In this document: positions 4,487 to 20,643 of the stretch, in pieces | Layout: each line of letters starts with the position of its first letter | Numbering within the stretch: the stretch's first letter is position 1 | IMG/VR virus record: IMGVR_UViG_3300031669_005974 | Coordinates: 1 to 26,629 of that record | DNA: 26,629 nucleotides | DNA from: a virus | Strand: one strand, 5' to 3' | Program-made: the position numbers and the translations under genes | The notes under the pieces: generated by a model | Told to the model about the DNA's origin: nothing | The model's database searches: none | Seen by the model: only the letters and a program-made list of their open reading frames with translations

Positions 4487-4546
4487 CGAAATCCTCCTGG
4501 TGAAATCCGTTTCTGATCATTGTCTCTTACCTGTCCATTGAACCGC

Positions 4547-5041: not shown

Positions 5042-5707
5042 TGGGTCTTCCCCTTTGGTTATAGGTGTTGCGGGAGCGCTGAAAGCCGTGCCGCCCGCGG
5101 TGTCAATTTCTCCAATGTCCTCGGCCGCCCACCCCAGTGATTCGGAGGTGATGACCTTGTTGGCTGTGTCCGCGTCGTATTTCTCGACCAGAAAATCACG
5201 CACCCGCTGGAACGTGTTCATGAACGTCCGCAGGACGCCTTTAAGGCGCCAATCGTTGTCCTGCGCGAACTCCACCACCAGGTCGCTTCCCTCGCCGGCG
5301 GTAAACTGCACCGGACCGAGTCCCTCCACCGCCGGGGCGGCCGCGCCCAGAAATCCGATGTGCTTCAGTGTCGTCAGGTCGGGCTGCAGGGAGATTGACA
5401 GGTTTTTGTACATGCCGGCATTCACCGCGTCGTAGAACTCCACGACCGCGTCCTTCAACTGCGCGTACAGCGTCGGCACGCCGTCGACCATGTCCTTCTT
5501 CAGGCCGGCCAGCCAGCCCCACGCCGGATCGTCGGTCTTGGGATGTCCCACAACAGCCGGCACCTGGTCGAGCCGCGACGCATTGAACTGCACGATCTTG
5601 TCGAGCTGCGCTTCGTCGAACTCTCTGGCCACGCCGGCGGAGTCGGTGTGCGTGCCTGCCCGAAAAATCGGAAACCACTGAGTTTTCTTCACGGTCTTGA
5701 TTGCCAT
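4547..5707 (-). CDS. I: Head maturation protease and scaffold (Mu gpI-like)
   Basis: A protein of 386 residues starting MAIKTVKKTQWFPIFRAGTHTD, typical of Mu gpI. The N-terminal protease domain (about 1-200) contains VVGHPKTDDPAWGW, with His55 a candidate catalytic residue, and YKNLSISLQPD, with Ser104 and Ser106 candidate nucleophiles. Residues about 220-275 form a coiled coil (LLKQENEALKAQVAEFSKN onward) typical of scaffold segments. The remainder is an Ala/Gln-rich helical tail like Mu scaffold Z. The protease is expected to cleave scaffold and itself during prohead maturation. It is the first gene of the leftward operon, with AAAAGGG upstream and a hairpin in the leader. An internal in-frame start at 5041 could yield the scaffold alone. 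Confidence 0.85.
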   Translation of the reverse strand: MAIKTVKKTQWFPIFRAGTHTDSAGVAREFDEAQLDKIVQFNASRLDQVPAVVGHPKTDDPAWGWLAGLKKDMVDGVPTLYAQLKDAVVEFYDAVNAGMYKNLSISLQPDLTTLKHIGFLGAAAPAVEGLGPVQFTAGEGSDLVVEFAQDNDWRLKGVLRTFMNTFQRVRDFLVEKYDADTANKVITSESLGWAAEDIGEIDTAGGTAFSAPATPITKGEDPMDALLKQENEALKAQVAEFSKNQARLTAVEQENATLKAATEATAKKARGAEFSAYTAGLVKDGRLLPANAPIVEGILELLHTAQPVQFSAEKTATPMDAMKELLGSYPARINFSRVADKGAAGGQPDNTNAQDIANRAVSFQKSQAEKGITVTIAQAVEAVTKA

Positions 5708-5731
5708 TGTCAGCCCTTTTCGGTTTTAAAA

Positions 5732-5768
5732 GCACGGAGAGAGGCTCGCCCGAACGCTCTCTCCGTGC
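5732..5768 (-). terminator. 12-bp perfect hairpin with T4 tail in the leader of the capsid-tail operon
   Basis: Bases 5732-5743 are perfectly complementary to 5757-5768, with a 13-nt loop. Read on the minus strand the stem is followed directly by TTTTAAAA, then by the ribosome site of gene I about 15 nt later. This has the form of an intrinsic terminator or attenuator lying in the 5' leader of the leftward operon. It could instead be an mRNA-stabilising 5' structure. The plus-strand side has no T run, so it is not a plus-strand terminator. Confidence 0.45.
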
Positions 5769-5865
5769 CCCACACCAGCAGAAAGGAGGCCGCTGCGAAG
5801 CGACTACTGCAAAACTATCCCGTTTACATTTAAGAGTCTACTGCGCCCGCGCATGCGCTTGCGCG

Positions 5866-5895
5866 TTGGACAGACTGCCCGGTTTCCGGTAGATT
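5866..5895 (+). promoter_or_regulatory. Possible promoter of the rightward packaging operon
   Basis: TTGGAC at 5866-5871 and TAGATT at 5890-5895 are separated by 18 bases, a fair sigma70-like pair. Transcription would start near 5902, right at the base of the 5903-5924 hairpin and about 58 nt before the first gene at 5960. Mu late promoters depend on activator C and have poor -35 elements, so this site could be weak or activator-assisted. Confidence 0.3.
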
Positions 5896-5902
5896 GACGT
5901 GG

Positions 5903-5924
5903 GCGCGGCGCCAAAGCGCCGCGC
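5903..5924 (+). promoter_or_regulatory. 9-bp GC hairpin at the 5' end of the packaging operon
   Basis: GCGCGGCGC (5903-5911) pairs perfectly with GCGCCGCGC (5916-5924) around a CAAA loop. It is followed by TTGTCATTATT, which is only mildly T-rich, so termination is doubtful. Position just after the proposed start site suggests a protective 5' stem-loop or an attenuator. Confidence 0.4.
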
Positions 5925-5959
5925 TTGTCATTATTACACGTGCGCCGGAAAGGCAACCC

Positions 5960-6352
5960 ATGGGTGAAGGCATCGCAGCGTCACTGGTCGCGCAGCTCCT
6001 GCAGCTCCTGGGACCGGGAATGGTCGCCGTGGCCCTGGTCACCATCATGGCGTACCTGTGGACCAAACAGTTGCGCGACAAGACCGAGAAGGACCGCGCC
6101 GAGCATACGAAGAAGTGGGATTCGATGGTCCAGCAGCAACGCGAGGCAATTCAGGCGATGGCCGCGGCCAATGAGGCCAACGTAAACAGGATCATGAAAG
6201 CGCAGGCCGAGGAAATCGACCGGCTTTTCCAATTGCACGAGCGCAAGGCCGACGCGCTGGACCTTCAGGCGCGCATGCTCACTGTTCTGGTGAGTAAGAT
6301 CGATTCCAACCAATTTTGTCCCATGATTCGGAGGAAAGATGGACCGACTTGA
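5960..6352 (+). CDS. Membrane-anchored coiled-coil protein (DUF2730/Mu gp25-like or holin candidate)
   Basis: A protein of 130 residues. ATG 5960 follows GGAAAGG by about 6 nt. One transmembrane segment at about residues 8-33 (LVAQLLQLLGPGMVAVALVTIMAYLW) is followed by a charged, helical, coiled-coil-prone domain (QLRDKTEKDRAEHTKKW to about residue 115). Mu-like phages carry similar small proteins (gp24-gp26, including DUF2730) just upstream of the terminase genes. Their role is unknown. A holin or spanin-like function is possible, because this is the first gene of the late unit and the endolysin has no export signal. The sequence alone does not decide. It overlaps the next gene by 14 bases. 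Confidence 0.6.
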   Translation: MGEGIAASLVAQLLQLLGPGMVAVALVTIMAYLWTKQLRDKTEKDRAEHTKKWDSMVQQQREAIQAMAAANEANVNRIMKAQAEEIDRLFQLHERKADALDLQARMLTVLVSKIDSNQFCPMIRRKDGPT

Positions 6353-6593
6353 ACTGAGGGGCCGGCTGCAGGAAGCCAACAGCAAATACGACGAACTGAA
6401 CACGCTGGCCAGCGCGGATGTGTCACTCGCGAACCGTTTGCTTGAACCATTCGCCAAGTACATCGAAGAAGACCTGACCCGGCTGGAAATGGTGAAAATC
6501 ACCGCCATAGTGACACGGCTCAACGGAACTATCGACGGGATGATTGAACAAAAGCGCATCATCGGCAGGCTAAAAGAGGAGCTGGGCGAGTGA
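6339..6593 (+). CDS. Small helical protein upstream of terminase (Mu gp26 position)
   Basis: A protein of 84 residues, all predicted helix and highly charged, starting MDRLELRGRLQEANSKYDELN. ATG 6339 follows CGGAGGAAAG, a strong ribosome site. There are no cysteines and no membrane segment. It lies between the membrane coiled-coil protein and the small terminase and is coupled to both: its start lies inside the preceding gene and its stop overlaps the next start. The position corresponds to the small unknown genes before gp27 in Mu. No function can be assigned. Confidence 0.6.
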   Translation: MDRLELRGRLQEANSKYDELNTLASADVSLANRLLEPFAKYIEEDLTRLEMVKITAIVTRLNGTIDGMIEQKRIIGRLKEELGE

Positions 6594-7033
6594 AAAAGCA
6601 CGCGTTCTCCGCGATCGCGGAACGGATGTATGTGGCCCAAGAGTACAGTTTCGAGGCCATCGCCGCGGAGCTGAAGCTCTCGGACAAGACCGTGCGCACC
6701 TGGGCGCAGGAGGGCAACTGGCAGGGCAAGAAAGCCGCTCTGCTCAAGCAGAAGACCGCCCTGCATGAAGACCTGTACGCATTCACCCGCAAGCTGGTGC
6801 AACTCATTTCGACTGACATGGACCGGCTCAGCGAATCGGCCGGATCAAATCCCGAGACCGACTCCCGCCTGGAAAGCCGCATCAACAGTCTTTCGCGCCT
6901 CCTGGCAAAACTGCCCACCGCGCGCGGGTATGAAGAGACGGTGGATGCGGCGAAGAAAGCCGAAGAGGTTGGCAAGCAGGGTGCGTCCAGTGACGAGATC
7001 GAAAAACGAGTCAACGAACTCCTGGGGTTGTGA
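6590..7033 (+). CDS. Terminase small subunit, HTH type (DUF1804-like, Mu gp27 position)
   Basis: A protein of 147 residues from GTG 6590, with GAGGAG about 10 nt upstream. The N-terminal 50 residues form a helix-turn-helix: RMYVAQEYSFEAIAAELKLSDKTVRTWAQEGNW, the pattern seen in small terminases and DUF1804 proteins of Mu-like phages. The remainder is a long helical region suited to oligomerisation. It should recognise phage DNA at the packaging site and pass it to the large subunit, whose gene overlaps its stop codon. The start overlaps the stop of the preceding gene (GTGA). Identification rests on HTH plus exact position. Confidence 0.75.
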   Translation: MKKHAFSAIAERMYVAQEYSFEAIAAELKLSDKTVRTWAQEGNWQGKKAALLKQKTALHEDLYAFTRKLVQLISTDMDRLSESAGSNPETDSRLESRINSLSRLLAKLPTARGYEETVDAAKKAEEVGKQGASSDEIEKRVNELLGL

Positions 7034-8454
7034 TGGCCGACGAGCGCTCCTATTTCATGTCATACCAGAAACGCTGGCTCGATGACGAGTCGCGCGTGAA
7101 GATATGGGAAAAGTCGCGGCGGATCGGCGCGACCTATGTGGCGGCATTCGAAGACGTGCGGGACGCAAACCGGGGCTGCGTGCCGGCGTGCTGGTTCTCC
7201 AGCGCCGATGAAACCGCCGCCCGGGAATACATCGAGTATTGCGTAAAATGGGCCTCAATCTATAAAATCGCGGCAGAAAGCCTGGGCGAGCAGGTAATCG
7301 ACGAGAAGGCGGGAATCAAGACCTACCAGGTGCTCTTCGCCAACGGGATTAAAATTCATGCGCTCAGCTCCAACCCCAAGGCGTTCCGGTCCAAGGGCGG
7401 CAAGGTCACCCTGGACGAGTTCGCCTGGCACGATGACGCGAAGGGCATGTGGGCGGCAGCCAGGCCCTGTATCACCTGGGGATTTCCCCTGCGCATCCTG
7501 AGCACACACCACGGGGTCAACAGCCAGTACAACCAATTTATCCAGAAGGTCAAGAAGGGCAAACTGAACTGGTCCCTTCACCATACGCCGATTACGGTTG
7601 CGGTTGACGACGGTCTGGCCGACAAGATCGCAAAACGGAAACTGACGCTGGAGGAGCGGCTGGCCTGGCTGGAGCAGGAACGTCAGAGCGTGGCCGACGA
7701 CGCGGTCTGGGCGGAGGAATACCTTTGCCAGCCGCAGGACGAGGCAACGGCGTTCCTGACATACGAGATGATTTTGAAACTTCAGCGCGACGGCATCCTG
7801 ATGCCGCTCTCCGAATGCGGCGGCGAGCTGTATGCGGGCATGGACATCGGCCGCCGGCACGACCTGTCGGTGATCTGGGTGTTTGAACGGGTCGCCGGGA
7901 TGTTGATAACGCGTCAGGTCATCGTGCTGCGCCAGATGCCCTTTGCCAATCAGCGCAAAGTGCTGTATGACCTTTTACGAAACCTCAACGTGCGGCGCTG
8001 CTGCATCGACCAGACGGGTCTGGGCATGCAACTGGCCGAGGAAGCGCAGCAGAAGTTCGGCACTTACCGGGTGGAGCCGGTCACGTTCACCGGGCCGGCC
8101 AAAGAGGAAATAGCGTACCAGGTGAAAGCCATGGCCGACGACCGTCTGCTGGTGATTCCGGAGGACTTTGATATCCGCGAGGACCTGCACAGCCTGCGCA
8201 AGGTGGTGACCGCGGCCGGCAATATCCGGTTCGACGTGAACTCCTCCGACTCGCGCCAGAGCCATGCTGACCGGTTCTGGGGCATGGGTCTGGCGGTCCA
8301 TGCGGCCAGCACCGCCGGGTTCACAACACCGGAAATATTGACCCGGCGGGATTTCAAAAAGGGCCATGATTCCAGGCCGATATTCGGGCCTCCAGGCGAG
8401 CAGTTGCTGACCAGGCTGGACAGGCGCCTGGGAGCCCCGGTCAGGGCGTTTTAA
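7033..8454 (+). CDS. Terminase large subunit (Mu gp28-like ATPase/nuclease)
   Basis: A protein of 473 residues. ATG 7033 overlaps the previous TGA (TGATG); a GTG one codon earlier is also possible. The motor domain has the Walker A-like KSRRIGATY at about residues 27-35 and Walker B KVTLDEFAWHD near residue 125, with the adjacent SSNPKAFRSKGG segment typical of gp28. The C-terminal RNase H-like nuclease shows MDIGRRHDLSVIWV (first Asp near 270), CCIDQTGLGMQLAEE (second Asp near 327) and SRQSHADRFWGMGLA (third acidic site near 412). It would drive headful packaging through the portal and cut concatemeric or integrated DNA, taking some host flank as Mu does. Confidence 0.93.
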   Translation: MADERSYFMSYQKRWLDDESRVKIWEKSRRIGATYVAAFEDVRDANRGCVPACWFSSADETAAREYIEYCVKWASIYKIAAESLGEQVIDEKAGIKTYQVLFANGIKIHALSSNPKAFRSKGGKVTLDEFAWHDDAKGMWAAARPCITWGFPLRILSTHHGVNSQYNQFIQKVKKGKLNWSLHHTPITVAVDDGLADKIAKRKLTLEERLAWLEQERQSVADDAVWAEEYLCQPQDEATAFLTYEMILKLQRDGILMPLSECGGELYAGMDIGRRHDLSVIWVFERVAGMLITRQVIVLRQMPFANQRKVLYDLLRNLNVRRCCIDQTGLGMQLAEEAQQKFGTYRVEPVTFTGPAKEEIAYQVKAMADDRLLVIPEDFDIREDLHSLRKVVTAAGNIRFDVNSSDSRQSHADRFWGMGLAVHAASTAGFTTPEILTRRDFKKGHDSRPIFGPPGEQLLTRLDRRLGAPVRAF

Positions 8455-8566: not shown

Positions 8567-8616
8567 GGACGGTAGATCGAGAAACACCTGTTCCGTAAAG
8601 AAGGATGGCGGTAAAA

Positions 8617-10083
8617 ATGGCAAAAAAAGCACTCACAACCCGCATCGCGCTGCGGTCCGAAGCCGAGTATCAGTTCGTTTCCGGGCAGCTGCCCGATCCG
8701 GACCCGGTTTTACGCAAAATGGGCAAGGACATCACCACCTACCGCGAGCTGCTGAGCGACCCGCGCGTGGGCTCAAACGTGGAAAACCGCCAGTCTGGCG
8801 TTCTCAGCATGCTCTGGGAGGTTGACCGGGGGAAGAGCAAGTCGCGGATAGCGCAGTTTGTGACCGACATGCTCGGCAACCTGGACATACCCACAATCAC
8901 CTCGGAGATTCTGGAGGCCCCGCTGTTCGGCATGAAGCCCCTGGAGGTGCTCTGGACGAGCGACGGCAGCCGGACGGTCCCCGGAGCAATCGACGGGCTG
9001 CCGCAGGAGTGGTTCGTGTTCGACCACGAGAACCATCTGCGGTTTAAAACCAAAGACAACCCCACGGGGATCGACCTGACCACGCCGGAATACCAGTACA
9101 AATTCCTGTTGCCGCGTTACCGGTCCACCTACGCAAATCCCTACGGGGTCCGCATACTCAGCCGGGTGTTCTGGTATGTGGTGTTCAAGAGGGGCGGGAT
9201 GCGGTTCTGGGTGACGTTCACCGAGAAATACGGCATGCCCTGGCTCTTCGGCAAATACCGCGCGGGCGCTACGGACGCGGAAAAATTAGCGCTTCAGGAA
9301 GGGCTTGAGGCGCTCATACAGGACGGCGTCGGCATTCTGCCCGAGGGTGACGGTGTCGATAAACTCGATGTAACCACCTCCGGAGCATCAGCGCAGCTCT
9401 ACGAGAAACTGCTTCGCTACTGTGATGAGGAAACCTCGATTGCCATACTGGGCCACACCGGCAGCTCGCAGAGCACGCCCGGCCGGCTGGGGTCGGAGGA
9501 CGCGGCCCTGGAGGTGCGGGCCGATATCATTGACAGCGATCGACGCCTCGTTGAACAGACCTGGGACCAGGTGATACGCTGGGCGGTCGATATCAACTTC
9601 GGCGCGCAGAAGCAGTATCCGCGCATGGAGTTTTTCGCCGAAGAGGACGTTGACCAGGAAATGTCCGAGCGGGACAAGAACCTGCATGACATCGGCGTGC
9701 GATTCAAAGAAGAGTATTTCGTCGAGACCTACAACCTGCCTGAAGGCCAGTTTACGGTTGACAACACGGCGCCGCGGCCGGCGCCGGCCGTACCGGGACA
9801 GGGCGCGGAGTTCGCGGCGGCCGGGCAGGCACAGGGTGATGCGGCGCAGACAGCCGTTGACACCCTCATCGACGGACTCCCGCCGGAACTCCTGCAGCAG
9901 CAGATGGAAGAGCTGTTGAAACCAATCATCGATATGATCAAACGCGCCGATTCGCTGGAGGAGATCCAGACGAAGCTGGCGGAGTTGTTCCCGAAACTCG
10001 ACGCGACCGGGTTGGAGAAAACCCTGGAGAAGGCGTTTCTACTGGCCGAGACCTGGGGCAGGGCCACTGCAACGGAGGGGTGA
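8617..10083 (+). CDS. Portal protein (DUF935, Mu gp29-like)
   Basis: A protein of 488 residues starting MAKKALTTRIALRSEAEYQF. ATG 8617 is preferred because GGATGGCGG lies 5 nt before it; an in-frame ATG at 8605 has its AAGAAGG site directly abutting the codon. DUF935 features are clear: ELLSDPRVGSNVENRQSGVLSMLW near residue 50, the APLFGMKPLEVLW segment near 110, RVFWYVVFKRGGMRFWVTFTEKYGMPWLFGKY at about 190-220, and GHTGSSQSTPGRLGSEDA near 290. The C-terminal 130 residues are Ala/Gln/Pro-rich and helical. The portal forms the dodecameric DNA channel of the head vertex. The stop overlaps the next start. Confidence 0.93.
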   Translation: MAKKALTTRIALRSEAEYQFVSGQLPDPDPVLRKMGKDITTYRELLSDPRVGSNVENRQSGVLSMLWEVDRGKSKSRIAQFVTDMLGNLDIPTITSEILEAPLFGMKPLEVLWTSDGSRTVPGAIDGLPQEWFVFDHENHLRFKTKDNPTGIDLTTPEYQYKFLLPRYRSTYANPYGVRILSRVFWYVVFKRGGMRFWVTFTEKYGMPWLFGKYRAGATDAEKLALQEGLEALIQDGVGILPEGDGVDKLDVTTSGASAQLYEKLLRYCDEETSIAILGHTGSSQSTPGRLGSEDAALEVRADIIDSDRRLVEQTWDQVIRWAVDINFGAQKQYPRMEFFAEEDVDQEMSERDKNLHDIGVRFKEEYFVETYNLPEGQFTVDNTAPRPAPAVPGQGAEFAAAGQAQGDAAQTAVDTLIDGLPPELLQQQMEELLKPIIDMIKRADSLEEIQTKLAELFPKLDATGLEKTLEKAFLLAETWGRATATEG

Positions 10084-10412
10084 TGGCGGGATTTATCACA
10101 ATCAACAACCAGCAGATATCCTGGTCGTTTATCGGCAAGGTCCGCAAGGCCCTGGGCGGCGACATGGAACGCACGATGGACTGCTTCTACAAGGCCCGCA
10201 ACGCGACGCCCCCCAACGGAGTGGTGAAATATATCGCGGCTGGATTTATCGCGGAGAAGCCGGAGGACCGTTACAGCCTGCTGCCCAGCAAGGACCGCGA
10301 AGAGCGGGGCATGCAGCCGATACGCGACTGGTGGTACCAACTCACCAAGCCCAAGGGCGGGGCAACGAGCCTGCGTGACATCATGCGCGAGATCGCGCGC
10401 GATGGTCCATAA
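10083..10412 (+). CDS. Unknown small protein between portal and patatin lipase
   Basis: A protein of 109 residues. ATG 10083 overlaps the portal TGA (TGATG) with GGAGGGG just upstream. The N-terminus reads MAGFITINNQQISWSFIGKV. Later come short helical segments and a basic, Trp-containing middle (IRDWWYQLTKPKGG). There is no membrane segment, signal peptide or cysteine cluster, and no family was recognised. Tight coupling to the portal and the 11-base gap to the lipase suggest co-expression as part of the head module or with the lipase. It could be a lipase partner or a head component. Confidence 0.6.
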   Translation: MAGFITINNQQISWSFIGKVRKALGGDMERTMDCFYKARNATPPNGVVKYIAAGFIAEKPEDRYSLLPSKDREERGMQPIRDWWYQLTKPKGGATSLRDIMREIARDGP

Positions 10413-10423
10413 CGGAGGAACCC

Positions 10424-11413
10424 ATGAATGAGCGTTCATGTCTGAAGATCGGCCTGCAAATCGACACCGGCGGAGCAAAGGGATTCATCTCGATAATGGG
10501 ATTGATTCACCTGGAGAAGAGACTGTGCGCACTCGTCTCCGCCCTGGTTGACATTATTGTTGGCGGGTCGATTGGCGCAATCGAGGCCGCGGCGCTTGCA
10601 ACCGGGAAGCTGTCCGCGCAGGATCTGCGCGGCATGATGCGCGCGACGGTCCCGAAGGTTTTCACCAGGTCGGGCCTGGTCCCGCTCTATCCACGCGAAC
10701 CGTTCCGCGCGGAGTGGGACGCCGCCATCGGTCCCATGAAACTGGGAGATGTGAAGGTGCCGCTGGTGCTGACGGCGGTAAACCAGTGCACGGGCGATAT
10801 GGAGTATTTCACCAGCGACAATTCCGCCCATGCGGACCTGCGGCTGCGCGACGTTGTCGAATACTCATTTGCCGCGCCGGTCTATTTCGGGGGAATCCCG
10901 GACCCGGTCCGCAAAGCAGTCTGGCTGGACGGCGGTACGGGGATCGACGGGTGCTCCCTGCTTCAGTGCCTGCGGCAGATGATGCGCCGCGGGTGGCTTA
11001 CCCACAAGGGCCACTCACACGTCCTGTCGCTGGGATGCGGCCACTATCAGGACCGGATATCATACAAGAAAGCCACCTCCTGGCTCGGGAGAAACTGGCG
11101 GCAGCTCAAATTGTACTGGTCGCATGATGACGGCGGGCTGGCACGCAGGCAGTCCATTGCCGATCGGGTGAGCTTCGCGAAGGACCTGGACTTCGCGTTT
11201 CTGAACTTCTCGTTCAACCGCCTGGACTGCGAGATCCCGAAGAAGATGGATATCATGGACGGCAAGCAGTTTATCGACCAATACGAGGCGTTCGGCCTTC
11301 AGTGCGCGAAGGACCTTGACCTGGCCCCGTTTCAGGAGCGTCTGGACCAGCGCTGCGCCGAGTTGCGCGCGCAGTCCCGCGCCCTTCATGCGGCCGCCGG
11401 CGGCCGGGCCTGA
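10424..11413 (+). CDS. Patatin-like phospholipase
   Basis: A protein of 329 residues, with GGAGGAA 6 nt before ATG 10424. All three patatin elements are present. The Gly-rich oxyanion loop is DTGGAKGF at residues 14-21, the nucleophile elbow is GGSIG with Ser49, and the catalytic Asp169 lies in WLDGG. Between them sit the usual SFAAPVYF segment (residues about 147-154) and ASA-like helices. Patatins are Ser-Asp dyad lipid acyl hydrolases acting on membrane phospholipids. No signal peptide or membrane segment is seen, so it would act in the cytoplasm or travel with the virion. It lies inside the packaging operon between portal and MuF, where Mu has no such gene. Roles to consider are lysis aid, virion-borne lipase at entry, or a defence/exclusion effector. 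The sequence does not choose among them. Confidence 0.87.
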   Translation: MNERSCLKIGLQIDTGGAKGFISIMGLIHLEKRLCALVSALVDIIVGGSIGAIEAAALATGKLSAQDLRGMMRATVPKVFTRSGLVPLYPREPFRAEWDAAIGPMKLGDVKVPLVLTAVNQCTGDMEYFTSDNSAHADLRLRDVVEYSFAAPVYFGGIPDPVRKAVWLDGGTGIDGCSLLQCLRQMMRRGWLTHKGHSHVLSLGCGHYQDRISYKKATSWLGRNWRQLKLYWSHDDGGLARRQSIADRVSFAKDLDFAFLNFSFNRLDCEIPKKMDIMDGKQFIDQYEAFGLQCAKDLDLAPFQERLDQRCAELRAQSRALHAAAGGRA

Positions 11414-11428: not shown

Positions 11429-13828
11429 ATGCCGCCATCAGGAATACTGCTCGATGCGTTCAAGCTGAAGCCGGCGGATGCGATTGCATTTCTGAAGGCC
11501 AAGGGCAACAAGTTTTCCTGGAACTGGTACGACACCTGGAAGGATGCGAACTCCCGATCGTTCACCGTCGCAAAGGCCATGAAAGCAGATGTGCTGAAAG
11601 CGATCCGCTCCGAGGTGACCAAGGCAATTGAGGGGGACTGGTTCGACGTGGTTGGACCTGATGGCGCCACGACCCGTATCAAGCGCGGCCTGACACTCCA
11701 GGAATTCCAGAAGCGGCTGAAGCCGCAACTTAAAACCCTGGGATGGTGGGGTAAAGGGGTCGACGACCAGGGCAAAGAGATTCAGCTCGGTTCTCCATAC
11801 CGGCTGAGGACCATCTACCGCACCAACATCCAGACATCATACATGGCCGGGCGCTACAAGCAACAGACCGCCGCTGTCGGCGGATTGCCGTATTGGCAGT
11901 ATGTCGCTATCATGGATGCGAAGACCAGGCCGGCGCACCGGGCATTGGACGGGAAGGTATTCCCGGCCGACGACCCGTTCTGGGACACGCATTATCCGCC
12001 CAACGGCTGGGGTTGCCGTTGCCGCGTGCGGCCGTTGACCAGGTCCGCTCTCGACCGGGAAGGGCTGAAGGTTGAGGACTCGGACGGCAAATTCACTACG
12101 AAGGAAGAGCCAATCGGGTCCGGAGACGAAAGAAAGCTGGTCAAGGTCACCGGCTACAAAACCACCAACGCATTCGGCCAGCCGGTCACCGTATATCCCG
12201 ATGCCGGCTGGGACTACAATCCCGGCAAGTCGGCGTATCCGCCAGGACTCAGCCTCGATGCCGGCAAGCCGCCGCCGAAAACGCCGAAGCCTGTTTTCCC
12301 GCTGCCGCCCGCGGCGACCGGGTCCGTACCGAGCCTGCCAACCGATACCGCCGGGCTCTCGACCATAAAGAACCTGGGAGGAAGCACCGGCGCGGTCCTG
12401 GTTCAAGACAAGGCCGGTGCGCAGTTCGTGATGAAGAAGGGCGCGGGCGCGGTGCATATCCGGGAAGAGGCGCTGGCCGACGATCTGTATGCAGCCCTGG
12501 GCGTAGATGTTCCCGAGCACACGCTCATCGATGCGCCGGGCGGTCCCGTTAAAATCTCCCGGTTCATCGACGGCACCCCGCTGAGCAAACTGCGCGGCGC
12601 CAAGCGTACCGCCGCGGTCACCCGCCTTCGTGAGGGATTCTCGACCGATGCGTTCCTGGCCAACCACGATGTAATCGGCCTGGATGAAGACAACATCCTG
12701 GTCGACAAAGTCGGCAAGGTCTGGCGGATCGACAACGGTGGTGTCCTGCGGTTCCGCGCACAGGGAAAAGAGAAGGCGGGGTTCGATGCCTACCCCATGG
12801 AACTCTGGACCCTGCGGGACAAGGATAAAAACAAGGCAACCGCCACGCTGTTCGGCGCACTCACGCATTCTGATATTGTAAAACAGTCCGAGGCGCTCCT
12901 GGCGAAACGGGAAACGGTCCTCAACCTTGTTAAGGACAAAGAACTGAAAAGCATCCTCGCCGCCCGGCTCGACAACATGCAGGACATGGTGAACACCTCG
13001 CGCACATTCATGGCCGATAAATGGGTGGATGATTACACGGGAGGATTCACCCGCAATGTCATGGGAATCAAGAAGGCGGGAGTTTCCGCGCTGCTGCCGA
13101 AGCGGCTGTCGAAAGGCCACAAGTCTCAGTATGTCGTGTATGACGAGAACGGGGTCAAGTGGGACAAGATGCGCGGCGAGGGCTCGTCGATCTCGAAGCT
13201 GGCGCACTACATGGGAGAGAACGGCGGGGACTACAAGCTGCTCGGGTCCTGGCTCAGCGCGCAGTCCGGCAGCTCCTGGAGCAGCGAATCAATTGCCCTG
13301 AAATACTGGTACGCGACACAGCGGTCGCTGAATCCGGACGCGTTCTACTGGCGGGGCAGCCTGGAGAGCGCCAAGCGCCAGTTCGAAAGCCTGGTCGGCC
13401 GCAATCTCCAGAAGTATTCCAACACCATGCAGACGTATCACGCCTATACCTACGAGCTGCTGCGCACCGCTGATATCGATTATGTCAACCGGGCGGCCGG
13501 CACGGTCCGGCTGATGCGGACTGAAGACAAGACGGTGCTCTCCGCCCACAAGGTGAAGCGCGGCGCGGAGGGGACCCTCAAACGGGGCGTGCTGGAATCA
13601 ACCTCAATCTACCGCAAGACTGCGGTGAGGGGCTCCGAGGTGACCGTGCAGGATGTTCCGCTGCAGCGGGTGTTCGGCACCTATTTCCATTCACAAACGC
13701 CAGGCGGCGACGGGTGCGCGTTCTACGGCGACTCGGAAAACGAATTCGTCGCGTTCCTTGACGGCGTGAAACTTCGATACGATCCGGGGTATGTAAATGC
13801 GGACGGGTATGTCAGGCAGAAGCCATAA
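11429..13828 (+). CDS. MuF head protein fused to HipA/PI-kinase-like and ADP-ribosyltransferase-like domains
   Basis: A protein of 799 residues; AGGAAGAGG precedes ATG 11429. Residues about 1-205 are the MuF minor head domain: YRTNIQTSYMAGRYKQQ near 130, then DAKTRPAHRALDGKVFP (about 163-179) and PPNGWGCRCRVRPLT ending near 202. Residues about 308-500 resemble HipA/PI-kinase proteins: LGGSTGAVLVQDKAG, FVMKKG with a candidate ATP-binding Lys, a loop NHDVIGLDEDNILV (about 412-425) and a DFG-like RIDNGG (about 432). Residues about 600-790 resemble R-S-E ADP-ribosyltransferases: VRLMR near 693, LESTSIY near 721 (STS motif), VPLQRVFGTYF, and ENEFVAF near 770 (E-x-E). MuF proteins with toxin C-termini are a known class carried in phage heads. 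The kinase plus transferase pairing is read directly from motifs, while toxicity is inference. Mu gpF is about half this length. Confidence 0.85.
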   Translation: MPPSGILLDAFKLKPADAIAFLKAKGNKFSWNWYDTWKDANSRSFTVAKAMKADVLKAIRSEVTKAIEGDWFDVVGPDGATTRIKRGLTLQEFQKRLKPQLKTLGWWGKGVDDQGKEIQLGSPYRLRTIYRTNIQTSYMAGRYKQQTAAVGGLPYWQYVAIMDAKTRPAHRALDGKVFPADDPFWDTHYPPNGWGCRCRVRPLTRSALDREGLKVEDSDGKFTTKEEPIGSGDERKLVKVTGYKTTNAFGQPVTVYPDAGWDYNPGKSAYPPGLSLDAGKPPPKTPKPVFPLPPAATGSVPSLPTDTAGLSTIKNLGGSTGAVLVQDKAGAQFVMKKGAGAVHIREEALADDLYAALGVDVPEHTLIDAPGGPVKISRFIDGTPLSKLRGAKRTAAVTRLREGFSTDAFLANHDVIGLDEDNILVDKVGKVWRIDNGGVLRFRAQGKEKAGFDAYPMELWTLRDKDKNKATATLFGALTHSDIVKQSEALLAKRETVLNLVKDKELKSILAARLDNMQDMVNTSRTFMADKWVDDYTGGFTRNVMGIKKAGVSALLPKRLSKGHKSQYVVYDENGVKWDKMRGEGSSISKLAHYMGENGGDYKLLGSWLSAQSGSSWSSESIALKYWYATQRSLNPDAFYWRGSLESAKRQFESLVGRNLQKYSNTMQTYHAYTYELLRTADIDYVNRAAGTVRLMRTEDKTVLSAHKVKRGAEGTLKRGVLESTSIYRKTAVRGSEVTVQDVPLQRVFGTYFHSQTPGGDGCAFYGDSENEFVAFLDGVKLRYDPGYVNADGYVRQKP

Positions 13829-14123
13829 CTTCGAGTGTGCCCGTATCGACGGCCTTGAGGAAATCCCGGACCGCGGACACGACCGCGTCGTCACGGGTGT
13901 ACCCGCGCAGCGTCATGGCGTTACGGCCGGTCGCGGCATCCGCGGGAAGCAACACCGAGGTTACGGCGGATTCCCACTCGGGACCCAGAAACACCAGGTT
14001 CTCGTCATCCAGCAGCGACCGCTTCACCTGGTCGGAGGAAATGAGCGCAGACCGTCCGTCGATGCTGCAACGCATCTCCGGGTACCCGTCGTTCACAGCG
14101 TATTTGATATCAGAGACCTTCAT
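13812..14123 (-). CDS. Convergent small gene of unknown function; candidate immunity protein
   Basis: A protein of 103 residues starting MKVSDIKYAVNDGYPEMRCS. ATG 14123 is chosen because AAGGA lies 5 nt upstream, and the longer frame has no ribosome site. It is an acidic, single-domain soluble protein with one Cys and no membrane segment; no family was recognised. It is the only leftward gene inside the rightward packaging operon, and its 3' end overlaps the last 17 bases of the MuF-kinase-transferase gene. It has its own sigma70-like promoter (14134-14162). Independent expression beside a toxin-like gene fits an immunity protein that protects the lysogen, but a repressor, exclusion protein or antisense regulator would also fit. 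The function is not shown by the sequence. Confidence 0.65.
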   Translation of the reverse strand: MKVSDIKYAVNDGYPEMRCSIDGRSALISSDQVKRSLLDDENLVFLGPEWESAVTSVLLPADAATGRNAMTLRGYTRDDAVVSAVRDFLKAVDTGTLEVMASA

Positions 14124-14133
14124 GATTGTCCTT

Positions 14134-14162
14134 ATAATACACCTTTTCGGACCGTCCGTCAA
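14134..14162 (-). promoter_or_regulatory. Promoter-like pair upstream of the convergent small gene
   Basis: Read leftward, TTGACG (14162-14157) and TATTAT (14139-14134) are exactly 17 bases apart. Predicted transcription would begin only about 4-6 nt before the ATG at 14123, so the leader would be very short and the AAGGA site nearly at the 5' end. The -10 could shift a few bases. The opposite strand also reads TATAAT here, without a -35 at good spacing. Confidence 0.45.
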
Positions 14163-14179
14163 CAGCGAGGAGCTGTATC

Positions 14180-14665
14180 ATGCCTTTGCCCGTGATGACA
14201 GTTGACGACACCAGGCTGAAAATTGTGCTGAAACAGCTCCTCCGGAAGAGCAAGGACGCCTCCACAGCATTCGCTGAAATCGCACAGGTCCTGGCCTCGT
14301 CGGTTGAAAAGAACTTCCACCAGGAAGGCCGGTATTTGGCGCCGAACTCGATGTATGGCGGATCGAGCAAGTGGCAGAAGCTCGCGGATTCCACTGTCGC
14401 GAACCGCGCCAGGAGCGGCCGCGGGGCGCACCCGATACTGCAGGTATCCGGCCAGCTCGCGTCCTCAATCACCACCGCGAGCGGTCCCCGGCATGCCCAG
14501 ATCGGCACCAGCCTGGTGTATGGAGCGATTCACCAGTATGGCGGCAAGGCCGGCCGCGGCCGCAAGGTCACGATCCCGGCCCGGCCGTTCCTGGTTGTCC
14601 AGGACGAGGACATCGACGACGCCCTCGATATCATCGCCCGGCATTTAACCAGGGGCGTGAAATGA
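14180..14665 (+). CDS. G: Virion morphogenesis protein (Mu gpG-like, tail completion family)
   Basis: A protein of 161 residues; GAGGAG lies about 8 nt before ATG 14180. The family signature is complete: an N-terminal helical region, a KWQKLADSTVANRARSG segment, ILQVSGQLASSI, GTSLVYGAIHQYGG at about residues 112-126, and IPARPFLVV near 136-144. This family (phage virion morphogenesis, P2 gpS/Mu gpG) helps in head-tail joining or tail completion. In Mu it follows gene F; here a reversed gene lies between the two. Its stop overlaps the next start (ATGA). Immediately to its right the phage structural genes stop, and the protease and coat follow on the opposite strand about 8.5 kb to the left. 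Confidence 0.88.
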   Translation: MPLPVMTVDDTRLKIVLKQLLRKSKDASTAFAEIAQVLASSVEKNFHQEGRYLAPNSMYGGSSKWQKLADSTVANRARSGRGAHPILQVSGQLASSITTASGPRHAQIGTSLVYGAIHQYGGKAGRGRKVTIPARPFLVVQDEDIDDALDIIARHLTRGVK

Positions 14666-14874: not shown

Positions 14875-15303
14875 CTAATCGTCGCCCTTCTTTTCCCACC
14901 CAACCACAAAGGCATCCTCCAGCGTGACACGTAAGTGAAACCTACCTTTTGCATATTGATAGTATTTCCACACTTCAGATTTCTTGCCCTTCAGAACTGC
15001 CTGGTCGACACTTTCCGGATCGCCCAACGACTGTCGCACCTGGTCTTCCGTTTCTCCGTTCCAAATGATTTTTTCTATGATGCGATCGACAATCTCCTCA
15101 TCGTTATAAAGATTCATCAAGTGTTGTCTGCGGTCTTCGTCTTGTCGGTGTTCAGACCAATTTTTAATCCATATTATCGCAATCATAATGCCGACGACGA
15201 CACACAAAAACGTCCACGCAAGAGCATTGCTTGCCGAATCATTTATCCATGCCGCAATGAGTATTGCCACCGCCGCGGTCCAGAAGATCACTTTCGGACT
15301 CAT
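14875..15303 (-). CDS. Membrane protein with BamE/SmpA-like C-terminal domain (cargo)
   Basis: A protein of 142 residues; ATG 15303 overlaps the stop of the upstream gene (15300), so the two are co-translated. There are two transmembrane segments at about residues 5-18 and 27-47 (VIFWTAAVAILIAAW, ALAWTFLCVVVGIMIAIIWI), then a charged cytoplasmic or periplasmic linker. Residues about 80-138 read like a small SmpA/BamE-type repeat: GETEDQVRQSLGDPESVD, KKSEVWKYYQYAKGRFHLRVTLED, VVGWEKK. Such domains bind partner proteins in envelope assembly and also occur in orphan bacterial proteins. Lower GC than the phage genes on either side suggests cargo. No virion role is indicated. Confidence 0.65.
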   Translation of the reverse strand: MSPKVIFWTAAVAILIAAWINDSASNALAWTFLCVVVGIMIAIIWIKNWSEHRQDEDRRQHLMNLYNDEEIVDRIIEKIIWNGETEDQVRQSLGDPESVDQAVLKGKKSEVWKYYQYAKGRFHLRVTLEDAFVVGWEKKGDD

Positions 15304-15857
15304 CTTATGTCCACCCTAAGGTTTATTTGCCTTGAATTTATCACCTTCACTCCGCATTGCGATCCGTCGTCCACTCTCCCGCGCAAGTCGAATGCCGGGG
15401 CATCGATGGTAACATTCGTGGTTGATGCCGGCACCCGCCTGGCTATGACCCCGACCGCCGGCAGAATACGAAACAGGGATGTATAAGCGGTATCGTGGCG
15501 ATCCCCAAGGTTCATGATTGCTATGCGACAAGAGTCAGAGACGGAGCTGACGGCCGGTGCAGCAGTGATACTGTCACAAACCCAGAGAGTGCTGCGAACC
15601 TTCCATTCGAAGTACATGGTGTCTATGTCTGTGAGTCCATACCACATCTGCTCACTAAGGCACCATCGATATGGGAATCTACCGTTTTTAGAAATCATTA
15701 CACGGTCTCCGAACAATCCTCCTGGATACGGGCCATATACAAGGCGAATGGTGTCGCCGACATGATACTCCGGCTCAACGTCCTGGTAGATGGTCGGGGC
15801 CGCGTGGGCAATTACCACGGAAACCATGACGACGAGAACCGCTGGGCGTATTGACAT
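15300..15857 (-). CDS. Secreted protein of unknown function (cargo)
   Basis: A protein of 185 residues. ATG 15857 is selected because GGGAGGTG lies 5-6 nt upstream and the promoter start point is about 18 nt away. A Sec signal peptide is clear: MSIRPAVLVVMVSVVIAHAA, with cleavage likely after AHA. The mature part contains IYQDVEPEYHVGDTIRLVYG, several Trp/Tyr-rich beta segments and four or five cysteines, suggesting a disulfide-bonded periplasmic or extracellular beta domain. The family was not recognised. It heads a two-gene unit with a separate promoter and lower GC, the hallmarks of a phage moron expressed in the lysogen. A role in altering the host surface or excluding other phages is possible but only inferred. 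Confidence 0.65.
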   Translation of the reverse strand: MSIRPAVLVVMVSVVIAHAAPTIYQDVEPEYHVGDTIRLVYGPYPGGLFGDRVMISKNGRFPYRWCLSEQMWYGLTDIDTMYFEWKVRSTLWVCDSITAAPAVSSVSDSCRIAIMNLGDRHDTAYTSLFRILPAVGVIARRVPASTTNVTIDAPAFDLRGRVDDGSQCGVKVINSRQINLRVDIR

Positions 15858-16055: not shown

Positions 16056-16739
16056 CTACCCCCCTGGCACAGCAGAGGAACGAAGATAGGCGGTAGCTAC
16101 TCCCGTCTTTGCCGGCTGGGCGGGCTGGCGCAGGCGTTCGTTTTCCGCTTCAATCTGCGATAGGCGCTTTTCACAGCCAGCCAGCAAATCAACCAGTTTA
16201 TTGTTCTTATCTCTAAGCTCGATGATTTCTTTTCGCAATTCCGCCTTGTCGTCGCTGAGACCCTGTGCCTCCAACGCCTGCAATCGCTCTTTTTCGGCTT
16301 CTTTATCCTGGGGCAATATGGGCGCGTGGTGACGGTAGGCGTTGCCAAGTATGTCGTTAAGGGTTGTGCCCGTTTCTTCGGCAATGCGCTGTAAAAATTC
16401 ATCAGCCGCGTCAATCTCACCACTGATGATTGCGGAAAGAAATTTCTCTGGTACTTCCAGGAGCTTCGATGCCTTTCCCTGCGAGCCCTTGAACACCCGA
16501 TCAAACACCATGCCGACAGTATTCCCGATGTTCGGCCGAACATCCCCGGAGAGTAACCACTGAGGCGTAACAGACAGCGCCCTTGCTATAATCAACACAA
16601 ATTCGTATGATGGCTTGGTGTCTTTTTCCCATCGCCCCCAGTTCCCCTGCGAAGTTCCAACCGCATCGGCCAGTTTCCCCTGGCTACAATCCAGGAGCTT
16701 CCTAACGAGTCGCATACGATGACTGAGATCTGGCTTCAT
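16056..16739 (-). CDS. Phage repressor (c-like) with XRE HTH, second HTH-like region and coiled coil
   Basis: A protein of 227 residues from ATG 16739; a GTG 24 bases upstream is an alternative, and neither has a good ribosome site. Residues about 1-62 form an XRE-type helix-turn-helix: MRLVRKLLDCSQGKLADAVGTSQGNWGRWE followed by PSYEFVLIIARALSVTPQWLL. Residues about 70-130 look like a second, degenerate HTH unit (GKASKLLEVPEKFLSAIISGE). Residues about 145-205 are a coiled coil (LRKEIIELRDKNNKLVDLL onward) for multimerisation. It is divergent from the early operon with operator-like repeats between them, the position of Mu c. It should repress the early promoter in the lysogen. Mu c instead has a winged Mu-type DNA-binding domain, so this is an analogue rather than a clear homologue. 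Confidence 0.8.
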   Translation of the reverse strand: MKPDLSHRMRLVRKLLDCSQGKLADAVGTSQGNWGRWEKDTKPSYEFVLIIARALSVTPQWLLSGDVRPNIGNTVGMVFDRVFKGSQGKASKLLEVPEKFLSAIISGEIDAADEFLQRIAEETGTTLNDILGNAYRHHAPILPQDKEAEKERLQALEAQGLSDDKAELRKEIIELRDKNNKLVDLLAGCEKRLSQIEAENERLRQPAQPAKTGVATAYLRSSAVPGG

Positions 16740-16743
16740 ACAG

Positions 16744-16790
16744 ATAAGTGTTGATTTCCACACGAATAAGTGTTATATTGTGTAAGTGAT
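16744..16790. promoter_or_regulatory. Operator-like direct repeats in the repressor/early gap
   Basis: ATAAGTGTT occurs at 16744-16752 and 16766-16774, a 22-base step of about two helix turns. A third, weaker copy is GTAAGTGAT at 16782-16790. The first abuts the early -35 and the second runs into the early -10, so a bound repressor or Ner-like protein would block the early promoter. Operator identity is inferred from the repeats and position. Confidence 0.5.
16751..16779 (+). promoter_or_regulatory. Early promoter
   Basis: TTGATT (16751-16756) and TATATT (16774-16779) are exactly 17 bases apart. Transcription would start near 16786 and run into the Ner-like gene at 16822 and on to the transposase. 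The promoter overlaps the ATAAGTGTT repeats, as expected for the phage early promoter under repressor control. Confidence 0.65.
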
Positions 16791-18871: not shown

Positions 18872-19157
18872 GTTAAGGTTGTACCGGGAGGCAAAGGCTG
18901 AAATTTTCAACCTGAACGAACTGGACCTTCTGACCGACGAAGAAAAGGCGTCCAATGCCACTCACGTCAAGGCGATTCTTGCATACAACGAAGGAAAATG
19001 CGACGGCGTAAAACTGCGGCAAATGACGGCGGCCGCAGCTGCGATCGCCAAACGCCAGCAGTCGAGATCCGCTACCGCTGTTTTAAAGTGGACCATGCTC
19101 CAGAAGACCCTCTCACTTCCAACCATTCCCGACAACAGGATAAACCCCGATGAGTGA
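18855..19157 (+). CDS. Unknown small early protein
   Basis: A protein of 100 residues; GGAAGGAG lies 7 nt before ATG 18855, and the start overlaps the previous gene. It is helical and polar, with an Ala-rich basic stretch (MTAAAAAIAKRQQSRSATA, residues about 57-75). No recognised domain. It overlaps the ParB-like gene by 8 bases (ATGAGTGA), which suggests that the two are made together and might function together. Confidence 0.55.
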   Translation: MSRTNELRLYREAKAEIFNLNELDLLTDEEKASNATHVKAILAYNEGKCDGVKLRQMTAAAAAIAKRQQSRSATAVLKWTMLQKTLSLPTIPDNRINPDE

Positions 19158-20388
19158 AATATCTCTTGTCAAGCTGACCGACATCGCCGTCGGAGATCGC
19201 ATCCGCAAGGACATGGTCGATCTGAACGCCCTTGCGCGCAGCATTCAGACCCTCGGACAGATTCAGCCGGTCACCGTGTACCGCCTGCCCGATAAGAGCC
19301 TGCACCTGGTTGACGGTGAACGCCGCATCAGGGCAACCCAGCAAAACGGCGGCAACGAAATCCTCGCGAACGTCACGGACAGTACGCCGGAAGAGCTGGC
19401 AGCCAAGAGACAAGAGGTTGAGATCGCGGCAAACAACGAGAGAGAGCCGTTTCGTATACGCGAAAAACTCGCAATTGCCAAAGAGATTATCAACAACCCG
19501 GAGCGTTTTCGCACGCGAAACGCCATATCAGACAACGAGATAGAGAAATGCAAGGAAGATGCTGAGCGTGACGGGATTCCTCTCCCGAAGGTTAGCGACA
19601 AGCAAATCGCCAAAGTACAGTATGCCGCACGAATCGCAGGCATAGGTGGGGCCACGTCATACTACCGACTTTCCCATATCGAAAAAAATGGTGTTTCGGC
19701 ACTTCTCGACGCCATTGAGTCAAAAGCCGTTGGCATCGAACAGGCATACTACATATCGAAGAATCCCAGCGAGGAGCAGCTGGAAATTCTCGAATCCATT
19801 GTTAAAGTGGTTCCACGTCCCGACAGCCCCGCCGGCCGTCCCGCCGGCTCCCCGAACAAGAAGAAGGTTAAGTCCCATGTCGGCAGTTACAAAGGCCCGA
19901 CGTTCGAGGTTGGTCTGGCCTGGCTCGGGTGGAAGCTCGACGACCCGTCCATGCCCGGGCGCTGGCCGTCAATCACGCAGCTCAAGGGGTACCCGATTCA
20001 TGAGGTGATGGCCATGGATGGCAGCGTGATTTTCATGCGCGCGGGCGCGCTCAACATCACGGACGCCGTATCGGTGCTCAACGCCTGGGGATTCCAGTTG
20101 ATGAGCGCGTTCTGGCTGGTGGATGACGCTCTGCGCAAACTGCCGGTCGAGAAATACGGTCTGTGCTCCTGGACCCAGCGCGTGCCATCGGCGCTTCTGC
20201 TGGCAACCGCAGGTGAATACCGGCAAGGGCTCAAAATCGAAAACCGCATCGAGCCATATCTCAGCGGCAAGATGCCGGACGCGGTATACCGGATGATTGA
20301 GGCGATTCTCCCGAAGCACCCGAAGGTCGAGCTGTTCTGCCAGGGAGAGCCGCGCAAGAGATGGCACAAGTGGCTGGCGGTGGACTAA
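19150..20388 (+). CDS. ParB-like protein fused to a degenerate MT-A70 methyltransferase domain
   Basis: A protein of 412 residues. ATG 19150 follows AGGA by about 10 nt. Residues 1-100 are a ParB/Srx-type domain with LVDGERRIRA at 53-62, the ParB box II-like motif. Residues about 145-225 are helical and HTH-like (SDKQIAKVQYAARIAGIGG). A Pro/Lys linker follows (about 234-252). Residues about 257-412 align in pattern with MT-A70 adenine methyltransferases: PSITQLKGYPIHEVM, GSVIFMRAGALNITDAVSVLNAWGFQ, WTQRVPSALLLATAGEY, and a KMPDAVYRMIEAILP...VELFCQGEPRKRWHKW end. The catalytic DPPW, expected after FEVGLA, is replaced by WLGW, so methyl transfer is doubtful. It may act as a DNA-binding adaptor or recognise methylated or unmethylated DNA. 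Confidence 0.8.
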   Translation: MSEISLVKLTDIAVGDRIRKDMVDLNALARSIQTLGQIQPVTVYRLPDKSLHLVDGERRIRATQQNGGNEILANVTDSTPEELAAKRQEVEIAANNEREPFRIREKLAIAKEIINNPERFRTRNAISDNEIEKCKEDAERDGIPLPKVSDKQIAKVQYAARIAGIGGATSYYRLSHIEKNGVSALLDAIESKAVGIEQAYYISKNPSEEQLEILESIVKVVPRPDSPAGRPAGSPNKKKVKSHVGSYKGPTFEVGLAWLGWKLDDPSMPGRWPSITQLKGYPIHEVMAMDGSVIFMRAGALNITDAVSVLNAWGFQLMSAFWLVDDALRKLPVEKYGLCSWTQRVPSALLLATAGEYRQGLKIENRIEPYLSGKMPDAVYRMIEAILPKHPKVELFCQGEPRKRWHKWLAVD

Positions 20389-20400: not shown

Positions 20401-20643
20401 ATGGTCTGCGCTGAACCATCACAGAAAGAAATTCTGCTTCAGCACCTGCGCGCGCACGGGAGCATCACGAAGCTCCAGGCGCTGCAGCAGTACGGAATCA
20501 TGAACACCGGCGGGCGGATGTTCGAGCTGCACGAAGAAGGACATCCGGTTTCATCGCGGAGGGTGGTGACGACAAGCGGCAAGCGGGTTGCGGAGTATTA
20601 CCTGGTGAATTTCGACGCGAACGGACAGGGGTCTTTATGGTAG
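20401..20643 (+). CDS. HTH_39-type DNA-binding protein
   Basis: A protein of 80 residues; GGAGGG lies 5 nt before ATG 20401. It has a winged-helix pattern: SQKEILLQHLRAHGSITKLQALQQYGI, then GGRMFELHEEGHPVSSRRVVTTSGKRVAEYYL. This is the small HTH_39 family found in many phages. Such proteins are thought to be regulators or terminase-like DNA-binding factors. It lies immediately before the transposase and overlaps its start by 7 bases, so it may tune transposase expression or bind phage ends. The target is unknown. Confidence 0.75.
   Translation: MVCAEPSQKEILLQHLRAHGSITKLQALQQYGIMNTGGRMFELHEEGHPVSSRRVVTTSGKRVAEYYLVNFDANGQGSLW

Follow-up and report, generated by a model that had tools for sequence, protein, structure and literature searches.

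MuF toxins have been described in general (PMC3482391, PMC5576092, PMC12226406), and two characterised ones, Bxa and Apk2, have one effector enzyme each. Here we describe a gene for a MuF head protein whose extra C-terminal part is predicted to carry a pair of enzymes, a kinase and an ADP-ribosyltransferase (ART). It occupies positions 11429-13828 (+) of the virus record IMGVR_UViG_3300031669_005974, the entire 26,629 bases of which make up the stretch analysed, referred to below as the window, and is followed by a small convergent gene.

Bxa, encoded by a Bacteroides stercoris prophage, is a MuF ART toxin; the genes next to it encode two immunity proteins, Bsi and BAH (PMC11699363). It shares with the window protein the N-terminal MuF domain, the C-terminal ART, the location among head genes and the presence of small adjacent open reading frames (ORFs), which provide immunity in Bxa and are a candidate for this role here; the comparison is one of architecture. 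Of the Bxa immunity proteins, one is an ADP-ribosyl hydrolase and the other a binder, whereas the window has a single convergent gene without a Pfam family, and the word "kinase" does not occur in the main text on Bxa. Apk2 is a MuF toxin with the activity of an adenosine 3'-pyrophosphokinase making (p)ppApp (PMC12226406). It resembles the window protein in being a MuF head protein with a C-terminal enzyme, which is toxic in Apk2, and its immunity genes lie directly downstream; however, Apk2 has one effector enzyme, which is not a protein kinase, while two enzymes are predicted here.

Polyvalent proteins, which are injected by phages and conjugative elements and consist of 2 to 15 domains, also bring multiple enzymes together in a single chain, among them ARTs, kinases and fusions to MuF (PMC5512222). 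The window protein has two enzyme-like domains on a head protein and may be delivered in a similar manner. The kinases of polyvalent proteins are described as a monophyletic Ser/Thr/Tyr group without the C-terminal subdomain, found mainly in (pro)phages of Verrucomicrobia-Chlamydia and Bacteroidetes (PMC5512222). By this description they are set apart from the CtkA/HipT-like kinase of the window, and "HipA" does not occur in the text of that source. MuF-ART and MuF-NUDIX fusions are known as well (PMC9503650).

An earlier note on this DNA considered two enzyme domains on one virion protein to be undescribed. This was too broad, as polyvalent proteins (PMC5512222) and MuF-ART fusions (PMC9503650, PMC11699363) are known, but a narrower part of the claim stands: no description of this kinase family on head proteins, of its coupling to an ART or of the linked small gene was found in the literature searched, most subscription journals and preprints lying outside the search. 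What we regard as new is a putative coupled kinase-ART effector on a MuF protein together with a specifically linked small gene, both recurrent in environmental phages.

Domains of the MuF protein

The reading frame is open through 799 codons, and all the motifs listed in the earlier note are present in it at the expected places. The three-domain layout proposed there is retained, with the following boundaries:

11429-12244 (+), MuF (phage Mu gpF-like) minor head domain, residues 1-272, defined by Pfam, PHROGs and identity to phage Mu
12245-12334 (+), proline-rich linker joining MuF to the kinase, residues 273-302, defined by sequence; the structure model starts here with low confidence
12335-13030 (+), HipA/CtkA-like kinase domain, residues 303-534, predicted by profile match, model, CtkA/HipT alignment and conservation
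13076-13780 (+), ADP-ribosyltransferase-like domain, residues 550-784, predicted by family profile, alignment, model and structural neighbours

The MuF domain is certain, as had been claimed. Pfam PF04233 matches residues 82-200 (E 2.4e-28), phrog_220 matches residues 7-274 (E 4.7e-87), residues 1-270 are 44% identical to phage Mu, and the motifs DAKTRPAHRALDG and GWGCRCRV are located at 163-175 and 193-200. In the best 40 of 305 matches the similarity to phage records ends at residue 269 or 270, where the extra part starts. Pfam has found no match above its cut-offs in residues 300-799.

Since a profile search of the PDB with the first kinase alignment (14 sequences) gave a chance match only, assignment of the kinase fold depends on the structure model. 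The model of residues 291-799, based on 24 sequences, has a pLDDT of 91.7 and a pTM of 0.91, the latter suggesting that the kinase and ART domains pack as one body. When 999 of the chains collected by Foldseek were aligned to this model with VIA-align, CtkA came out on top (Z 14.8, rmsd 3.6, 210 residues aligned), followed by HipT 7wcf (Z 11.8), actin-fragmin kinase (11.7) and HipT 7vkb (11.4), while RIO and JAK kinases reached 11.1 or less; 7wcf and 7vkb are structures of HipT (PMC9325769). Overall, CtkA of Helicobacter pylori (3akk/3akl) and HipT of the HipBST system (7wcf, 7vkb) share the kinase fold with the window protein over 188-210 residues at an rmsd of 3.4-3.9, with 13-15% identity in the alignment. 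To our knowledge, neither of them is known as a virion protein or as an ART fusion. Ranked by the E-values of Foldseek itself, protein kinases of eukaryotes come before CtkA, which is at rank 5, so the affinity to CtkA and HipT depends on the second alignment, made with VIA-align; by TM-score CtkA (0.30) exceeds the eukaryotic kinases (0.22-0.23). The model thus strongly supports a kinase fold, closest to CtkA and HipT among the chains aligned, and the label "HipA/PI-kinase-like" given to the middle domain in the earlier note was a good call.

The profile that matches residues 303-534 contains the window sequence as one of its rows. Prominent residues of the domain include the G318-S319 loop, K336, E347, D414, N422 and D435, and the motifs are FVMKKG (333-338), DEDN (419-422) and RIDNGG (433-438). 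Judging by kinase motifs, we take K336, D414, N422 and D435 to be the Lys, the catalytic Asp, the Asn and the metal-binding Asp, respectively. D407, N412 and D414 are invariant in all 133 kinase domains compared; K336 is Lys in 131 of them (2 gaps), N422 is Asn in 132 and D435 is Asp in 132 (1 gap). The G-rich loop has a conserved Ser/Thr (Ser in 118 and Thr in 11 of 133). Pfam does not detect HipA (HipA_2 or HipA_C) in the window protein; the best relative, from locus L043, scores 20.9 bits with HipA_2, under the cut-off of 27, and other relatives score lower. The same L043 protein (3943-6663) contains two kinase copies, the second of which has NWN in place of NWD and may be inactive, its catalytic Asp seemingly lost.

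In the C-terminal domain, an Arg, a Ser-Thr-Ser and a Glu-x-Glu follow each other in the order expected of an R-S-E ART: R697 (within an RTE motif), S724-T725-S726 and E770-x-E772. Of 5000 shuffled versions of residues 590-799, 0.7% show such a spacing, or 5.4% with a looser pattern, so the motif taken alone is weak evidence. It stands above chance because its residues are conserved in the 24-row ART alignment, where R697, S724, P744, E770, N771 and E772 are invariant. An iterative profile collected 30 ORFs with an ART domain of the window type, fragments and near-copies included, and no reversed decoys at convergence. The model of residues 550-799 has a pLDDT of 89.7 and a pTM of 0.90. All 50 structural neighbours listed by VIA-align look like ARTs (best Z 5.5), by their titles or, where these are uninformative (e.g., Certhrax, VahC/VsdC, 6aqk, 8s2m, 9ld3), by what we take the proteins to be. 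R697 is located within a strand, STS at the next strand, and ExE opens a later one, a strand order which presumably agrees with that of R-S-E ARTs. If the last 20 residues are aligned without gaps, C3bot E214 and iota Ia E380, the catalytic Glu residues as named in the entry titles, would fall within one residue of E772. In our judgement, residues 550-784 are very probably an ART.

Recurrence of the kinase-ART pair

Searches with the ART part as a single sequence gave no matches in viral contigs, genome contigs or phages, and relatives of the window protein were reached only through its kinase part. With the latter, tblastn located relatives in 19 phage records, and the 14-row kinase alignment found 59 loci in genome contigs. 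In viral contigs, at least 562 stretches encode the kinase among the 599 pattern-matched stretches listed; the best 80 of these at least 562 were kept, and the shares of architectures given below describe this sample rather than all phages. Altogether 158 ORFs had a kinase match (the window included), 154 besides the window passed the E 1e-30 threshold, and removal of 22 near-copies left 132 non-redundant ORFs.

An ART is encoded in the same ORF as the kinase in 70 of the 132, with 24 ARTs of the window type and 46 of the PF03496 type. In another nine the ART resides in a different ORF of the locus, and the remaining 53 have no recognised ART in the locus, indicating that from the kinase side the pairing is not obligatory. 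One of these 53 (L036 4786-6675) has a weak Scabin-like (ART) match, below cut-off, in front of the kinase. A profile of the PF03496-type ARTs, built from 39 of 47 sequences for the PDB and hhalign comparisons, matches Lmo0066 (E 3.7e-30) and VIP2 (E about 1e-28); by these matches the group is well founded. MuF was found by Pfam in five of the eight window-type relatives scanned whole (L080, L076, L077, L075, L081). The kinase-ART order is that of a recurrent family, a point that the earlier note had left to a survey of MuF homologues.

The association was also examined from the ART side. The ART-seeded search found 32 loci, 20 of them on contigs already present in the kinase-seeded set, and in all 12 new contigs the kinase is located upstream of the ART in the same ORF. 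Near-copies were retained among the 12 (L162 is apparently one, of contig L088). As only kinase-linked proteins went into the ART query, a more divergent ART without a kinase could escape it. Window-type ART pieces outside a full kinase-ART ORF comprise a 142-residue ORF in L165 and the stretch 4499-5197 of L082/L083, which has a partial kinase; in L089 the kinase and the ART are encoded in two different frames. A kinase tree built with FastTree from 131 rows implies 7 changes for the window-type ART, of which well-supported branches force at least 3 (mean of shuffles 23.1), and 17 for the PF03496 type, no fewer than 7 of them forced (mean of shuffles 37.9). Free swapping of all parts as cassettes is rejected by this tree, on which the ART types cluster, though they have changed several times.

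Other partners of the kinase were assessed with Pfam in 117 C-terminal pieces (116 of 122 plus the window) and 124 N-terminal pieces of up to 370 residues each (all 123 of at least 60 residues plus the window). NUDIX is present in 4 of the former and 11 of the latter. Fusions to head proteins are common: MuF was recognised in 22 N-terminal pieces, portal families account for up to 10, and another 6 have Phage_min_cap2. The BFVD entry A0A6J5S481, a viral protein named "portal protein", contains a stretch 41% identical to the window model over 239 alignment columns, consistent with a kinase in a portal fusion. Surveys of whole genomes have found the kinase family only rarely, in 5 of 369 genomes of one class and 2 of 286 of another, seed genomes included.

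Six cultured phages of 86-95 kb (Dolphis, Touem01, ST4, Mecenats66, fHe-Yen8-01 and phiT5282EW), infecting Yersinia, Enterobacter, Morganella, Pseudomonas and Aeromonas, encode proteins in which a kinase of the same family is followed by an ART. Unlike that of the window, this ART belongs to the PF03496 type, and no MuF was found by Pfam in the four proteins scanned whole (Dolphis, Touem01, ST4, Mecenats66). None of the six product names mentions a kinase; should the pair work as a unit, this would show what is missing from annotations such as those of Dolphis and fHe-Yen8-01, which name only the ART. The protein of the Yersinia phage fHe-Yen8-01 bears the depositor's label "phage particle associated protein"; no mention of this phage name was found in the literature searched.

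Several other architectures were encountered in the course of the survey. Contig L165 encodes two window-type kinase-ART proteins (4012-6756 and 8766-10418) and a third ORF with a PF03496-type ART. At L014 (2-4729), a Streptomyces megaplasmid encodes a protein of no fewer than 1576 residues which has a glutaminase-like domain and ends 6 residues past the kinase, as if the kinase were the terminal toxin itself. In 15 loci (L025, L028, L031, L048, L051, L085, L097, L099, L100, L130, L134, L136, L144, L148, L150) the kinase is followed by a look-alike C-terminal domain with motifs such as NETIFK and PDGR, as judged by eye, which may be another enzyme paired with the kinase.

The linked small gene and possible roles of the pair

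The earlier note did not notice the small gene that follows the kinase-ART gene and which we consider the best clue to function. It and its putative promoter are located as follows:

13812-14123 (-), small convergent gene of 103 residues, candidate immunity protein, recognised by its coding signal and by homologues after other kinase-ART genes
14134-14162 (-), sigma-70-like promoter TTGACG-17-TATTAT upstream of the small gene, 10 of 12 consensus matches

The codon score of the small gene (0.41) is similar to those of known genes of the phage, while the plus-strand ORF 13797-14195, an alternative candidate for the gene after MuF, was rejected with a score of -0.08. No equally good promoter-like site arose in 200 shuffles of the stretch upstream of the small gene. 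This does not extend to convergent copies in general, as the sites of five other opposite-strand copies do not exceed shuffles and only that of the window stands out. An ORF of less than 150 residues directly after the toxin gene is typical of MuF toxins, being present next to 89.4% of 191 such genes (PMC5576092); here it has 103 residues and lies on the opposite strand.

Single-sequence scans with the small gene found no relatives; its homologues surfaced when the slots after kinase-ART genes were compared. An iterative profile then recognised 15 members among 11,685 ORFs, all of them directly after a kinase-ART gene of the window type, with which 6 are convergent and 9 share the strand; in L089, where the ART part is in another frame than the kinase, the small gene follows the ART part. 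The gene is present at 15 of 25 window-type loci and at none of 108 other kinase ORFs, those of the PF03496 type included (Fisher p 1.3e-13, relatedness ignored), the latter count having been made irrespective of whether the sequence after each kinase gene leaves room for it. It is also present in 7 of the 12 new ART-seeded contigs. A scan seeded with the small protein returned five loci: four are the contigs whose copies formed the query, and the fifth, L196, shares a contig with L176, a window-type kinase-ART locus. As the small gene follows one ART type only while the kinase is common to all the loci, the ART is the likelier target of the small protein. A second family of small genes (about 107-138 residues, opposite strand) occupies the same slot in L088, L082 and L083, and a conserved same-strand gene of 105-133 residues is found about 335-660 bases after the kinase-ART gene in seven loci (L016, L075, L081, L098, L108, L125, L143).

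We consider it somewhat probable that the window gene codes for a polymorphic toxin of the MuF kind, its effector being a coupled kinase and ART, and is accompanied by a candidate immunity gene. This reading builds directly on the domain order, the predicted kinase fold, the conserved catalytic residues, the R-S-E pattern, the recurrence of the pair and the small-gene association; from these it extends by inference to packaging, injection, catalysis, toxicity and immunity. The MuF domain would put the protein into the phage head, and the kinase-ART part would enter the cell along with the DNA, since such delivery is argued for MuF toxins (PMC5576092) and packaged ARTs (PMC9503650), and modify host proteins there. 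The C-terminal half would act as one coupled effector, in which a HipA/CtkA-like Ser/Thr kinase precedes an R-S-E ART; modification or poisoning of the host would fall mainly to the ART, and the kinase would work alongside it, either on that target or on a linked one. The 103-residue convergent gene, having its own promoter-like site, would most likely make an immunity protein that is expressible in the lysogen and would restrain the ART while late genes are read. If the pair works as a unit, two protein modifications would be linked in one injected particle, and a compact two-enzyme effector with mutable catalytic residues and a candidate immunity gene would offer a ready test.

A number of observations weigh against this interpretation. 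Ordinary eukaryotic kinases precede CtkA in the Foldseek ranking by E-value. The best Z of the ART model, 5.5, lies in a range possibly meaning only a common arrangement, and Foldseek with this model gave no match below E 0.001 (row 1 is unrelated at E 0.14, ART toxins occupy rows 3 and 4, their best E being 0.27). Neither the ART profile search of the PDB nor Pfam on the window protein finds an ART, and hhalign gives a probability of 0.2% for the ART profile against the PF03496-type ARTs behind the same kinase. The ART call of the earlier note is probably right in view of the conserved R-S-E residues and the 50 ART-type neighbours, and is tempered by these low structural scores and by the lack of a profile match to classical ARTs. 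In addition, 53 of 132 kinase ORFs have no recognised ART in the locus, Pfam finds no MuF in three of the eight window-type relatives scanned whole (L079, L088, L078), and 10 of the 25 window-type loci have no recognised copy of the small gene. Finally, we infer both the presence of the window protein in the virion and its exit from it.

A stricter form of the coupled-effector reading, which we regard as rather unlikely, makes the kinase and the ART one obligate machine, with phosphorylation linked to ADP-ribosylation and a dedicated small protein neutralising it. The kinase would prime a host target or license the ART after injection, and the lysogen could make the neutralising protein from the convergent promoter. 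If this were true, a kinase plus ART on a head protein would constitute a widespread, undescribed phage infection strategy; the idea that it is widespread comes from the kinase being joined to at least two ART families unrelated by sequence profile.

It is similarly doubtful that the kinase is a control part. By phosphorylating the ART or the head protein in cis, it would either hold the ART inactive within the particle or set it free once inside the cell, so that only the ART acts on the host. In all 12 contigs added by the ART-seeded search the kinase does precede the window-type ART, and the pTM of the two-domain model suggests a single packed body. The conserved Ser/Thr of the G-rich loop fits too, as E. 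coli HipA and Legionella HipT autophosphorylate a P-loop Ser (PMC9325769). However, some proteins end 3 to 22 residues after the kinase (L036, L050, L014, L034) and others join it to NUDIX instead of an ART, which argues against a dedicated switch of one ART.

With about the same reserve, the protein can be viewed as a counter-defence or takeover tool similar to T4 Alt, which on entry modifies the RNA polymerase of the host or some immune enzyme rather than acting as a toxin against competitors; the small gene would then code for a regulator or chaperone and not for immunity. Occurrence of kinase-ART proteins in the six cultured phages of 86-95 kb is in line with such a role, as are the recurrent neighbourhood of NUDIX, a domain of ADP-ribose chemistry, and the argument that packaged ARTs act at the earliest stage (PMC9503650). 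But the window-type ART often has its own small gene, on either strand, in the manner of toxin-immunity pairs, and no copy of that gene was found at any of the 108 other kinase ORFs.

It is quite unlikely that the small gene is an unrelated passenger (moron) which got into the slot by chance. Its opposite strand and own promoter-like site in the window would suit a moron, and so would the different small-gene family in the same slot of L088 and L082/L083. The family has no Pfam match but DUF7309 at E 0.062 for one member, and no PDB match below E 0.43. Against this, all 15 members are located right after a window-type kinase-ART gene, on either strand. The view that one or both enzyme domains are inactive and play a structural role, e.g., as a head scaffold, has in its favour the strong divergence of the ART from known ARTs, but is very improbable given that few positions of the family are conserved as well as the active-site residues of both domains and that two ART families unrelated by sequence profile are found behind the same kinase.

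Genes around the kinase-ART gene

The gene resides in a head and DNA-packaging module, with terminase and portal genes upstream and a neck protein gene downstream. The other recognised genes of the window are:

7030-8454 (+), terminase large subunit (phrog_5909, E 1.3e-32)
8605-10083 (+), portal protein (phrog_113, E 1.5e-116)
10424-11413 (+), gene for a patatin-like phospholipase (PF01734, E 4.2e-10), with GGSIG at residue 47
14180-14665 (+), neck or tail-completion protein (phrog_26, E 1.6e-31)
16056-16763 (-), HTH_3-type repressor-like gene
20637-22607 (+), Mu A-type transposase (phrog_310, E 5.4e-70)
22636-23538 (+), Mu B-type transposition protein (phrog_296, E 3.5e-65)

Judging by the A-type and B-type transposition genes, the phage is a Mu-like transposable phage. 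Together with the repressor-like gene, they mark it as temperate, as expected for a carrier of a MuF toxin, judging by gene content. The record is probably an incomplete genome, as that of phage Mu has 36.7 kb.

The order of genes in the head module is portal, patatin-like gene, MuF-kinase-ART gene, neck protein. The patatin-like gene thus lies within the head operon, between the portal and MuF genes, and possibly codes for a second effector. Neighbours of the kinase gene that could be named by PHROGs or Pfam are head genes and this patatin-like gene; no HipB profile was run.

GC content falls to 0.48 at 14935-15486 and 0.53 at 16056-16763, compared to about 0.60 in the late genes, and a later acquisition of these stretches around the repressor-like gene is possible. 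Further downstream, the ORF at 19150-20388 (+) has a ParB-like N-terminal part fused to a DNA-methyltransferase-like C-terminal part.

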